This document shows positions 9,334-12,249 of a stretch of 64,000 nucleotides of DNA, piece after piece (the first letter of the stretch is position 1; every line of letters begins with the position of its first letter). The notes below the pieces were generated by a model. It saw only the letters and a list, made by a program, of their open reading frames with translations. It did no database searches and was not told where the DNA came from. The position numbers and the translations under genes were made by a program. The stretch spans positions 1,223,501-1,287,500 of the forward strand of contig NZ_CP035310.1 in assembly GCF_004114695.1 (NCBI RefSeq), written 5' to 3'. Source of the DNA: Erythrobacter sp. HKB08 (lineage in GTDB: Bacteria; Pseudomonadota; Alphaproteobacteria; Sphingomonadales; Sphingomonadaceae).

Positions 9334-9693
9334 ATGGCAACGAACTTGCTGGAACGAATTTTAAAGCAGCCCGACAAGGATGCTCCCCCGCCGCCGCTCG
9401 GCGGGACGCGGTCGGAAGCTGCGCATCGCCTGCAGATCGGCCTGTCCGGCATTGCTGCCATGGTCCTGCTGGTTGCGCTGGCCGATACCATCCTCAGCCG
9501 CGCCGAGCAGACCGAGGCTTCCGCCGTGCCTGAAGCGGCGGCGACCGTAAAACCGAGCGAGACTGCGGTTCCGCAGCACGACCCGCTTGCCGAAGCGGGC
9601 GTCGTGCCCGACCTGCCGGCATCGCCCACTCCCACGCCGTCGCAGGAGCCCGCCATCCTTCCCGAACAGGGCGGAGGCAGTGGCGAGGACTAA
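9334..9693 (+). CDS. Hypothetical single-pass membrane protein
   Basis: A 119-residue protein with an N-terminal cytoplasmic part (about 32 residues, proline-rich), one membrane span (LQIGLSGIAAMVLLVALADTIL) and a low-complexity Pro/Ala/Glu/Thr-rich tail predicted in the periplasm. No family is recognised. It overlaps the next gene by 14 bases, so the two are probably co-translated and work together. The low-complexity tail argues for a tether or scaffold rather than an enzyme. Confidence 0.7.
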   Translation: MATNLLERILKQPDKDAPPPPLGGTRSEAAHRLQIGLSGIAAMVLLVALADTILSRAEQTEASAVPEAAATVKPSETAVPQHDPLAEAGVVPDLPASPTPTPSQEPAILPEQGGGSGED

Positions 9694-10462
9694 GCTCGCG
9701 CTCGGCGCGGTCCTGCTCGTTTTCGTGCTGGCTTTCATCGCGTGGAGCGTGGCCCCGCGCGAGCGGGAGAAGCCCGCGCTCGGCCTCATGACATCGCTGC
9801 CGATCTACTGGTCCGAGGCAAGCTCGATCGAGGACATGCTGGCGCAGGATAGCGAGCCGCACTGGGTCCGCGCGCGGCTGGAGGAAGACTTCCGCCTCGT
9901 CCCGCTCGACAGCCTCGCCGTGCCGGGAAGCGCGGGCGAGGTCTCCGAGAGGCTGGCCCCGCTCGAGCGCCTGCTGCTCGCACAGCCGGCCGCCTTGCCG
10001 CCTGCCGACCTGGTCGCGCTCGACAGCTGGGTGAGGGGAGGAGGGCACCTGCTCCTGTTCGCCGACCCGATGCTCACCGCGCACAGCGAATTCGGCCTCG
10101 GCGACCGGCGCCGCCCGCAGGCCATCGTGATGATCGATCCGCTGCTCGCCCGCTGGGGCCTCGACCTCCTGTTCGATGAAGAGCAGACGGCAGGCGAGCG
10201 GTTGGAGGCTTTCGATACCGGCACGGTCCGATCCGGCCCGGTGAACCTGCCGGGACGTCTGGCAACGCGCGAAGGTTTCCCGACGGCTATGGAAGCTTGC
10301 TGGATCGCGGCAAACGGCCTTACCGCAAACTGTTCGATCGGTGCGGGCGAGGTGCTGGTCGTCGCCGATGCCGCCCTGCTGGAGGAACCGGACGATGGCG
10401 TCCTTACCGGCCGGGAAGAGGCCCTCGACCATCTTCTCGGGAGCCTTTCATGGCCGGGCTGA
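9680..10462 (+). CDS. Membrane-anchored protein, DUF4350/ABC-auxiliary-like
   Basis: The 260 residues start at GTG, with GGAGG two bases upstream, inside the end of the preceding gene. There is one N-terminal span (LALGAVLLVFVLAFIAWSV) followed by a soluble domain. The block LVALDSWVRGGGHLLLFADPML and the later GAGEVLVVADAALLEE are like the glutamine-amidotransferase-like folds of DUF4350 and ABC-auxiliary (GldG-like) proteins. No ABC partner genes are adjacent, so the role is open. The gene ends 315 bases before mraZ. Confidence 0.65.
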   Translation: MARTKLALGAVLLVFVLAFIAWSVAPREREKPALGLMTSLPIYWSEASSIEDMLAQDSEPHWVRARLEEDFRLVPLDSLAVPGSAGEVSERLAPLERLLLAQPAALPPADLVALDSWVRGGGHLLLFADPMLTAHSEFGLGDRRRPQAIVMIDPLLARWGLDLLFDEEQTAGERLEAFDTGTVRSGPVNLPGRLATREGFPTAMEACWIAANGLTANCSIGAGEVLVVADAALLEEPDDGVLTGREEALDHLLGSLSWPG

Positions 10463-10618
10463 CGAGTCGCACGGGAATTTGCGGGCAGGGAGCGGGACTC
10501 GCATGGGGACTCTACGGGAAAGCACGGAACTTGCTGGCTTTTCAGGGCTGTGACAGGCTTGATGAGAGGGGCGCGTTAAGGAAATATCTGCAATAAAAAC
10601 AACACTCTGACGGGTTTT

Positions 10619-10652
10619 CCCGGGTAATCCCTTAATTTTCCCTTTTATCCCC
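10619..10652 (-). promoter_or_regulatory. Phased GGGAW repeats, candidate MraZ operator
   Basis: Read on the minus strand, four GGGA(A/T) units start about every 10-11 bases (plus-strand CCC at 10619, 10629, 10640 and 10649). E. coli MraZ is known to repress its own operon by binding three TGGGN repeats with five-base spacers, the same helical period. The unit here lacks the leading T, so the match is in arrangement and GGG core, not in full sequence. Confidence 0.55.
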
Positions 10653-10702
10653 GCGTGCTGCGGGTTAATACCGTCTTCCATCAGACAGGTTGTCTTTCGC
10701 TG

Positions 10703-10722
10703 CGCTTCGTGGGGACGAAGCG
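10703..10722 (+). promoter_or_regulatory. Perfect hairpin in the mraZ leader
   Basis: An 8-bp perfect inverted repeat, CGCTTCGT and ACGAAGCG, is separated by a GGGG loop, 55 bases before the proposed mraZ start. It has no T-run, so it is not a simple terminator; it could be a leader structure or a protein site. Confidence 0.5.
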
Positions 10723-10777
10723 AGCCGCCATCGCTTACGCGCGGGCGGAGACGGGGAAGGCGTGCCTGCGGCAGGGA

Positions 10778-11302
10778 ATGGCGAGGGGTGCGAAAGTCGC
10801 AGTGACGGGAGTGCGGGTCAGCTACAGCGGACAGGCCTATTCGCCGGCAGGCGACAAGGGCCGTTTCGTGCTGCCTCCGCGGTTCCGCAAGGCCGTGAAA
10901 GAGGCCAGCGGCGACAACCGCATCCTGTGCATCGACAAGCACCCCAAGTGGAAATGCCTCGTCGGCTTCGGCCTCTCGCGCGAGGAAGAACTGCACGACC
11001 AGCTCGAGCGCGAATACGAGTCCGCCGACCGCCACGGCCGCGACTTCGACTACGACGAGCGCATGAGCCAGCTGTTCGGTTTCGAGCAGGTCCCCTTCGA
11101 CGACAGCGGCCGTTTCGTGATGCCGACCTTCCTGCTCGGCTTGGCCGATATTTCCGACGGCCTGTTCTTCCGCGGCGGTGGCCGGTTCTTCACGATCTGG
11201 AATCCGGAACAGCTCTACAAGATGGGCCCCGAATGGGAGGCTGCGCAGGCCGCCTGCCGCGTGCTCGTGGACGAAGCCGGATCGAAGGGGCGCAAGAAAT
11301 GA
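10778..11302 (+). CDS. mraZ: Transcriptional regulator MraZ
   Basis: DNA-binding regulator and first gene of the division and cell-wall cluster; in E. coli it represses its own operon. The 174 residues hold two AbrB-like half-domains, each with the MraZ signature: [16 protein letters not shown] and [14 protein letters not shown]. The ATG at 10778 has AGGGA directly before it, which is tight; GTG codons at 10802 or 10811 are possible alternatives, since the conserved fold begins only at [13 protein letters not shown]. The stop overlaps the rsmH start as ATGA. Confidence 0.9.
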
Positions 11303-12249
11303 GCGCTTCTGACACCCAAGCTCCCCACATCCCCGTCCTGCTCGACGAAGTGATCGCCGCGCTCGCCCCGCAGCCCGGCGACGTGATCATCGACGCCACC
11401 TTCGGTGCAGGCGGCTACACCCGCGCGCTGCTCGATGCCGGCGCGACCGTCCATGCCTTCGACCGCGATCCCGACGCGATCGAGGCAGGAAGCAAATGGC
11501 CCGAAACGCGCGAAGACCCGCCGGCTCTCGTGCTGCACCCGCGCCGCTTTTCCGAAATGCTCGACGCCATGAACGAGGCGGGCATCCGCCAGGTCGACGG
11601 CGTGACGATGGATATCGGCGTTTCCTCCATGCAGCTCGACCAGGCCGAGCGCGGCTTCGCCTTCTCCAGCGACGGCCCGCTCGACATGCGCATGAGCCAG
11701 GAGGGCGAAAGCGCCGCCGATTTTCTCAACACCGCCGACGAGGCGACCATTGCCGACGTCCTCTACCAGTATGGCGAGGAGCGCCAGTCGCGCCGCGTCG
11801 CGCGCGCCATCGTGGCGGCCCGTCCGCTGGAGACGACCGGCGAGCTGGCCCGCGTCGTGCGCAAGGCGCTGGGTCACAAGCCGCACGACAAGAAAGACCC
11901 TGCGACCCGCAGCTTTCAGGCGATCCGCATCCATGTGAATGCCGAGCTCGACGAACTGGCCGAAGGCCTCGCCGCTGCCGAAGCGCTGCTGCGCGAAGGC
12001 GGGCGGCTCGCGGTGGTGAGCTTCCACAGCCTCGAGGATCGCATCGTCAAGCGCTACTTGCGCGAAGCATCGCAGACCGGCGGCGGCTCGCGCCACCTGC
12101 CGCAGGTCGATACGGCAGAGCCGATCTACCGCAAGGTCTCCAAGGCGATCCGCCCGGGCGAGGCGGAGCTTGCCCGCAACCCGCGCGCCCGCTCCTCCAC
12201 CCTGCGCCACGCGATCCGCACGGGCACTCCGGCGAGGGAGGCGGCATGA
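11299..12249 (+). CDS. rsmH: 16S rRNA (cytosine(1402)-N4)-methyltransferase RsmH (MraW)
   Basis: SAM-dependent methyltransferase that modifies C1402 in the ribosomal decoding centre. The 316 residues match family size. Typical blocks are [13 protein letters not shown] at the N-terminus, the SAM motif [14 protein letters not shown], the [17 protein letters not shown] segment, and [19 protein letters not shown] near the C-terminus. The start is the ATG in the ATGA overlap with mraZ. A much longer open frame upstream is only mraZ read out of frame. Confidence 0.96.

Follow-up and report, generated by a model that had tools for sequence, protein, structure and literature searches.

MraZ is encoded at the head of a gene cluster that is among the most conserved in bacteria, yet little is understood of its role. 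Two DXXXR motifs are typical of the family. Repression by looping, as known from the GalR/HU and lac-type systems, relies on two operators in helical phase and, in gal, on a bending protein between them; the putative operators described below differ from these in being multi-box arrays of an AbrB-fold protein, placed in opposite orientation.

The Escherichia coli MraZ operator at mraZ1p consists of direct GGG repeats at 10-bp steps (Eraso et al. 2014, as summarised in excerpts of PMC7761207 and PMC8475190), and direct GGG repeats at this step likewise lie upstream of mraZ at the locus studied here. The E. coli boxes (TGGG at -43, -33 and -23 from the ATG) are on the coding strand, near the start codon and downstream of the -10 element (PMC7761207, excerpt), whereas ours are on the minus strand, lie upstream of and across the predicted -35, read CGGGA rather than TGGGN in the clade and are accompanied by a second array. 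In Burkholderia cenocepacia, a fragment carrying four 7-nt repeats with 3-nt spacers was bound by MraZ in vitro; this site shares the 10-bp period of the array analysed here but lies downstream of the -10, and the excerpt of PMC7761207 describes no second array for it. The Mollicute MraZ promoter also carries several direct-repeat boxes but with another unit sequence, AAAGTG[T/G] (PMC8475190, excerpt; PDB entries 9sz7 and 9r4j, going by their titles, are listed with it). As far as these excerpts go, the published operators compared are single arrays. A long 5' leader before mraZ is described for Rhodobacter (UpsM; PMC5089854, excerpt), which resembles the leader found here but belongs to another family. 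Among the papers listed by literature searches, judged by titles and abstract openings, none reported an MraZ loop, IHF at mraZ or sphingomonad MraZ boxes; regulon databases such as RegPrecise may list alphaproteobacterial sites.

The GGGAW array and the mraZ promoter

The initial annotation of the window, meaning the whole 64-kb stretch of Erythrobacter sp. HKB08 DNA analysed, had called four GGGA(A/T) units on the minus strand before mraZ and read them as suggesting MraZ autoregulation. The four units are present within TTTTCCCGGGTAATCCCTTAATTTTCCCTTTTATCCCC (10615-10652), as plus-strand WTCCC starting at 10617 (TTCCC), 10627 (ATCCC), 10638 (TTCCC) and 10647 (ATCCC). The steps of 10-11 bases that had been claimed are nearly exact: strict WTCCC units are spaced by 10, 11 and 9 bases, and the CCC cores (10619, 10629, 10640 and 10649/10650) by 10, 11 and 10 if the last is taken at 10650. 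The distance given, 126 bases before the start codon, fits an ATG at 10778 and fails if translation starts at the GTG at 10802, which is probably the start shared with the two congeners. The coordinates of all features are collected in Table 1.

Table 1. Features of the mraZ upstream region, in window coordinates
Feature	Position	Strand	Basis or remark
Distal array	10473..10519	+	GGG units at 10473, 10483, 10494, 10505/10506 and 10516; conserved array type
IHF-like site AAACAACACTCTG, 7/9 positions of WATCARNNNNTTR	10597..10609	+	Family-logo motif at a fixed place; predicted
Proximal MraZ array (predicted), four GGGAW units	10617..10652	-	Unit search and comparative conservation
Predicted -35, TTTTAT, between boxes 3 and 4	10643..10648	+	Family -35 TTNNAT at the same register
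Predicted -10, TAATAC, 17 bp after the -35	10666..10671	+	Promoter script and family logo
Structured 5' leader RNA of the mraZ/dcw transcript	10679..10770	+	Covariation and covariance model
mraZ	10802..11302	+	Start probably GTG 10802, from congener sequences; ATG 10778 possible
rsmH (mraW), next dcw gene	11299..12249	+	PF01795, E = 3.1e-89

Nowhere else in the window, on either strand, do three or more WTCCC follow one another at 10-11 bp. Relaxed to three phased GGGR units, the pattern matched 16 times in the whole 2.75 Mb genome, including five matches in a poly-G run at the contig start and, among the other 11, three within 160 bp at this locus. The reversed control matched 18 times; three units alone are thus not rare, and it is conservation that carries the case. 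The poly-G run (G000 contig C1, about bases 49-75, at the contig's very start) is probably an assembly artefact. The pattern search speaks against a regulon beyond dcw: at no second place in this genome do several arrays overlap or adjoin.

The initial annotation had proposed looking for the repeat upstream of mraZ in relatives and had named its absence there as a refutation; the check was made on family genomes, over the 420 bp that precede the Y/F codon of YSGQ, and the repeat proved conserved. Among 155 family loci drawn by rsmH or mraZ (one per genome or named record), 153 had an mraZ match; two of these were dropped for a merely partial hit (L071, L025) and two more for a duplicate upstream region (L111, L146), leaving 149. 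Between -420 and 0, CCC recurs at 10/11-bp steps at least three times in 116 of the 149 regions, at least four times in 69 and at least five times in 17; the remaining 33 have no run of three. Step classes from 5/6 to 8/9 bp and from 12/13 to 15/16 bp gave only 0-5 genomes, the directly neighbouring classes 83 (9/10) and 16 (11/12). Restricted to -240 to -70, phased CCC was found in 113/149 genomes, compared to a mean of 1.8 and a maximum of 5 in 60 rounds of dinucleotide shuffling.

Beyond the family, a class-wide draw of 58 genomes with 57 family codes, none of the loci coming from the window's family, yielded 54 genomes with rsmH; the best 30 loci were read, and 29 of them had mraZ, one with just 52 bases upstream. 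At least three phased CCC occur in 21 of these 29 (best 30 of 54 read), and CCCA, the minus-strand TGGG, is phased in 20; other spacings that were tried gave no locus with phased CCCA. In the alphaproteobacterial loci read, boxes thus commonly lie on the minus strand, and this orientation, opposite to that in E. coli, is not peculiar to the lineage. The suggested change of the unit holds for one base. T precedes GGG in 0.87 of the units class-wide, in 0.46 in the family outside the clade defined below and in 0.03 within that clade, where C leads (0.54), the GGG core is kept and the units do not have the TGGGN form. MraZ autoregulation with a changed unit, as originally suggested, is upheld as to the conserved repeat and the altered 5' base; the GGGA part is not new. 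By clade we mean the starred 72-row group of the MraZ tree, which contains the window and all eight named loci (Erythrobacteraceae bacterium E2-1, Altererythrobacter, Erythrobacter, Alteripontixanthobacter, Pseudopontixanthobacter, two Croceicoccus and Novosphingobium).

The description of the array as lying before mraZ was incomplete, since a predicted -35 is embedded in it. Promoters were searched near each array with a permissive script (TT, 16-18 bases, TA; starts are predicted), which returned one for 111/115 family arrays and 18/21 class arrays; for the window it chose a hexamer one base later than that in Table 1 (TTTATC, 16 bp) with the same -10. Despite the permissive search, the register is sharp. 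Measured from the first base of the -10, class boxes lie at -27, -17, -7, +3 and +13, with TTGAC[CGT] in 13 and TATCCC in 14 of the 18 promoters. The 111 family promoters have boxes at -47 (62), -37 (81), -27/-26 (92), -17/-16 (89) and -7 (49), 17-bp spacers in 88, and TTCCAT (27) and TAATAC (13) as commonest hexamers; those of the window are at -47, -37, -26 and -17. Relative to the predicted -10, the array here has thus moved two units upstream compared to other families. The shifted register, intermediates counted in, also occurs in 33 genomes outside the clade and needs at least seven changes on the MraZ tree; three clade genomes scored as 'core' (L113, L119, L159), probably wrong promoter picks of the script, were kept in the counts. 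Judged from these comparisons, autoregulation by MraZ is the best reading of the proximal repeats, which probably form a real, conserved binding array for MraZ inside its own promoter, and we are highly confident of an MraZ operator in the promoter as such.

The regulator itself is divergent. The window protein scores 22.6 bits against Pfam PF02381, just under the cut-off of 23, and its matches to the NCBIfam MraZ models, with E down to 1.9e-11, are far under their cut-offs. A PDB search with the one protein sequence found no MraZ, and a nine-row profile found it weakly (best E 0.083). An AlphaFold model built from the same nine rows (pLDDT 70.5) has MraZ structures as all of its 16 best PDB matches (E 2.4e-5 to 6.1e-3, TM by target 0.51-0.58), among them one entitled 'MraZ in complex with 4 box promoter', and these matches support a double AbrB-type fold. 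Together with rsmH directly downstream, the mraZ-rsmH order at the head of dcw, this model indicates that the protein is a strongly diverged MraZ, and we use the name because of fold, gene order and descent. Two loci of one AT-rich genus with genomes of about 2.1 Mb (L058 and L087, genomes G024 and G109) lack both regulator and boxes: no mraZ was detected next to rsmH, and the region upstream of rsmH holds neither a GGG nor a CCC triple in phase.

In the 72-row clade, K12 and R14 (residues counted from the Y of YSGQ) never vary and the second DXXXR motif, D93-x-x-x-R97, is kept throughout; the first is incomplete, its D being replaced by G in 0.93 of the rows, the window included, with R kept. 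Position 95, in the second motif just before G-R, is a candidate specificity residue. In the 90 genomes with S95 the mean fraction of T before GGG is 0.05, compared to 0.64-0.89 for the other residues listed, and outside the clade the family has 0.15 with S95 and 0.60-0.88 with other residues. This association is strong by group, with far too few phylogenetically independent pairs for a test, and the suggested correspondence between residue 95 and the operator base is only a lead.

A second array and an IHF-like site

The array initially annotated appears to be only half of the element, which also includes a second array and an IHF-like site. The second, distal array runs on the plus strand with units GGGAA, GGGCA, GGGAC, GGGGA and GGGAA at steps of 10, 11, 11 and 11 bases. 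It starts 10 bases past the stop codon of the upstream ORF (9587-10462), which matches ABC_transp_aux (E = 1e-8) and DUF4350 (1.6e-6); in 10 of 11 clade loci, the window included, the region before mraZ contains the end of a long co-directional ORF at a similar position. Inspection by eye for a mirrored -35/-10 pair, as a leftward promoter at the distal array would have, found none in the two sequences viewed, the window and L079.

Phased GGGA pairs between -420 and -240 were found in 62/149 genomes. Shuffling gave 2.2 (maximum 6), off-periods gave 2-4, and three genomes have such pairs in the opposite orientation (TCCC). Distal array and proximal run are combined in 58/72 clade genomes versus 6/77 in the rest of the family, a count that demands a proximal run of three (present in 69/72 and 46/77, respectively) and scores genomes without one as lacking. 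After thinning at 75% MraZ identity, the distal array remains in 32/43 clade genomes versus 3/63 outside. The strict pair is missing from 14 of the 72 clade genomes, including the congener L033. The consensus units of both arrays agree, A-C-GGG-A-W-W proximally and C-GGG-A-W-W distally. The 15-bp word GGGRAWWTNRCGGGA, searched in 20 chosen genomes that mostly have a distal array, gave 23 matches (reversed control: none). Of these, 11 fall at the distal array (coding strand, 833-1026 bp ahead of rsmH), six at the proximal array (other strand, 667-712 bp ahead of rsmH), one inside mraZ and five elsewhere. This strict word has no match in the window's own genome. The GGGGAATTTGCGGGA word at G066:C10:170776-170790 appears to fall within the coding sequence of mraZ (coding strand, 183 bp ahead of rsmH).

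The two arrays are in helical phase. In this group of bacteria they stand some ten DNA turns apart. In the window, the distal units lie 146, 136, 125, 114/113 and 103 bp from the first proximal box, at phases of 0.66-0.83 of a 10.6-bp turn. Across 64 genomes, the nearest distal GGGA is 53-191 bp away, with the distances grouped at intervals of one turn (such as 102-104, 111-115, 124-126, 133-137, 144-147 and 156-157 bp), giving a phase concentration R of 0.77 at 10.7 bp; none of 5000 rounds reached this value in either of two nulls, random offsets (maximum 0.39) or permuted proximal positions (0.42). Thinning by MraZ identity to 60, 38, 24 and 20 genomes left R at 0.77, 0.76, 0.70 and 0.68, with none of 3000 rounds as high for each set and R of 0.40-0.52 at 10.0 bp. 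Measured to the -10 instead, 181 distal units gave R = 0.70 at 10.5 bp, and with the pairing rule dropped, CGGG and GGGA ranked first and second for phase among 131 tetramers, the words below them mostly belonging to the same unit. Of two control distances, that from the first box to the MraZ codon gave R = 0.12, and that from the upstream stop codon to the first box 0.36 (n=69), which is some phase. The spacer sequence between the arrays is unconserved (median ungapped identity 0.28, near random). The helical phasing expected of a looping operator pair is found here by comparison of genomes. Alternatively, the phase could go back to a single long distal array in an ancestor, with different units surviving in its descendants; such a history would account for the many turns, but it still requires a spacer without off-phase insertions and leaves the scarcity of off-phase spacers unexplained.

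Apart from boxes and promoter, the logo of 82 non-redundant family promoters contains a sole further motif, at -69 to -57 from the -10. It is A-rich at -84 to -78, then A/T at -71 to -67, and has the core C(0.70) A(0.65) R(0.68) N4 T(0.62) T(0.62) R(0.76) ending at -57. The 5' A-tract is presumably placed as in the lambda H' site. With its 5' A/T tract, the motif fits WATCARNNNNTTR at offset -69; the IHF consensus is given as WATCAANNNNTTR (PMC10380432, excerpt). The mean IHF score at this offset is 5.37/9, compared to 3.10 (sd 0.48) over all offsets, and 53/98 promoters have at least seven matches within one base of it, versus 3.5 in mononucleotide shuffles (maximum 9). Such a match is present in 45/68 clade promoters, leaving 23 without, and in 9/43 outside; the window copy pairs its seven matching positions with a poor A-tract. 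IHF-like site and distal array co-occur overall (Fisher p = 1e-4), whereas in phylogenetically independent pairs the association is not significant (median p 0.625). The genome encodes three DNABII-family proteins. An UP element was rejected as an identity for the motif, the position being, as we infer, too far upstream of the predicted start, as was an NtrX site (GCAn9TGC; PMC7240162, excerpt), for which the logo has G at just 0.11 at the required place.

The mraZ leader

Downstream of the promoter, the leader of the window (L031:1402-1493) is predicted to fold into an outer helix, 10682-10687/10763-10768 (CGGACA/TGTCCG, with one mismatch in the window), enclosing hairpins at 10703-10722 and 10725-10748. 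Of 68 clade leaders, 25 without a CATCGGACA-like start were dropped and 34 of the remaining 43 were aligned; the other nine were excluded as hard to align, so that the pair counts lean towards structure. Over 20 pairs, 88.5% of cells are paired, compared to 75.8% in shuffled alignments, 16 pairs have changes on both sides, and covariation is 0.435 versus 0.202 for shuffled alignments and 0.08-0.13 for slid partners. A covariance model recovered 10 of 13 clade loci outside the training set at E <= 0.01 (the other three: 0.069, 0.48 and none) and 0/23 loci outside the clade at E <= 0.05 (best 0.066); Rfam had no match at E <= 1 in window 10300-11000. By these alignments, the mraZ leader is a clade-specific, covarying RNA with three predicted helices.

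Autorepression, looping and other readings

We propose that MraZ would bind one face of the helix at the four GGGAW units of the minus strand, cover the -35 and repress its own operon. In the Erythrobacteraceae/Novosphingobium clade, this operator would have as its partner a second MraZ array, which repeats the same unit on the other strand, in most cases 100-150 bp further upstream, and keeps helical phase with the first. An IHF site just upstream of the proximal array would bend the DNA between the arrays, and MraZ rings on both could meet across the bend, forming a loop that denies polymerase access to the dcw promoter. DNA of these loop lengths would be stiff if it were not bent, and the IHF site would make sense as the means of bending it. 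The arrays, their phase and orientation, the fixed IHF-like motif and the register to the predicted promoter are visible in the sequences; occupancy of both arrays by MraZ, binding of IHF and the formation of a repressing loop are what we infer from them. For the IHF-assisted repression loop taken by itself, we consider the case evenly poised, and the whole statement, an MraZ promoter operator joined to an IHF-assisted loop with a second array, seems to us rather probable.

Alternatively, the promoter array might act alone, the distal one being an auxiliary or decaying site that forms no loop and whose units raise the local concentration, and the IHF-like motif an ordinary bend. The proximal array alone is indeed common across the class, and distal array and IHF-like site are partly patchy, but simple autorepression of this kind leaves the helical phase over 53-191 bp of unconserved spacer and the strict distal orientation (62 vs 3 of 149) to be accounted for, and we regard it as rather unlikely. 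MraZ could also be an activator, or activator and repressor at once, recruiting polymerase from an array that, placed two units upstream, abuts a poor -35. Such a role would suit the register shift from -27..+13 to -47..-7 and the poor -35 (TTCCAT/TTTTAT) with its loss of TTGAC (TTGAC[CGT] in 13/18 class promoters, TTCCAT in 27/111 family promoters), and it has a precedent in Mycoplasma gallisepticum, in which MraZ overexpression was accompanied by raised FtsZ (PMC8475190, excerpt). However, box 4 still lies inside the -35/-10 spacer and MraZ is a repressor in E. coli and Mycoplasma genitalium, according to the excerpts at hand, which makes activation distinctly unlikely.

The distal array might instead be part of a leftward promoter or of the upstream gene's 3' end, or be the site of another protein. 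Its mirror geometry would be expected of a divergent promoter and in the window it begins 10 bases after the upstream stop codon, but a long co-directional ORF ends just upstream in 10/11 clade loci (L041 being ambiguous) and the phase is locked to the mraZ array, so that we hold such a role to be very improbable. As for a G-rich pattern arising by chance or composition and having no function, three phased GGGR units do occur about ten times per genome and their reversed control equally often; conservation at a fixed register, the off-period controls and the shuffles nevertheless rule this out, and its probability is practically nil.

Returning to the IHF-assisted loop between two MraZ arrays, a more inclusive version, which we put forward tentatively, sees a looped MraZ/IHF dcw switch in which MraZ recognises CGGGA instead of TGGGA, tracked by changes in its DXXXR motifs (G for D in the first, S95 in the second), and in which the clade-specific leader RNA would add a second layer of control. 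If true, the dcw cluster of these bacteria would be governed by a split, phased operator with a built-in bending site; to our knowledge, no looped MraZ switch has been described before. The roughly 150 genomes, with two registers, two unit sequences and many loop lengths, would then constitute a natural test series that could show how an AbrB-fold ring protein reads DNA.
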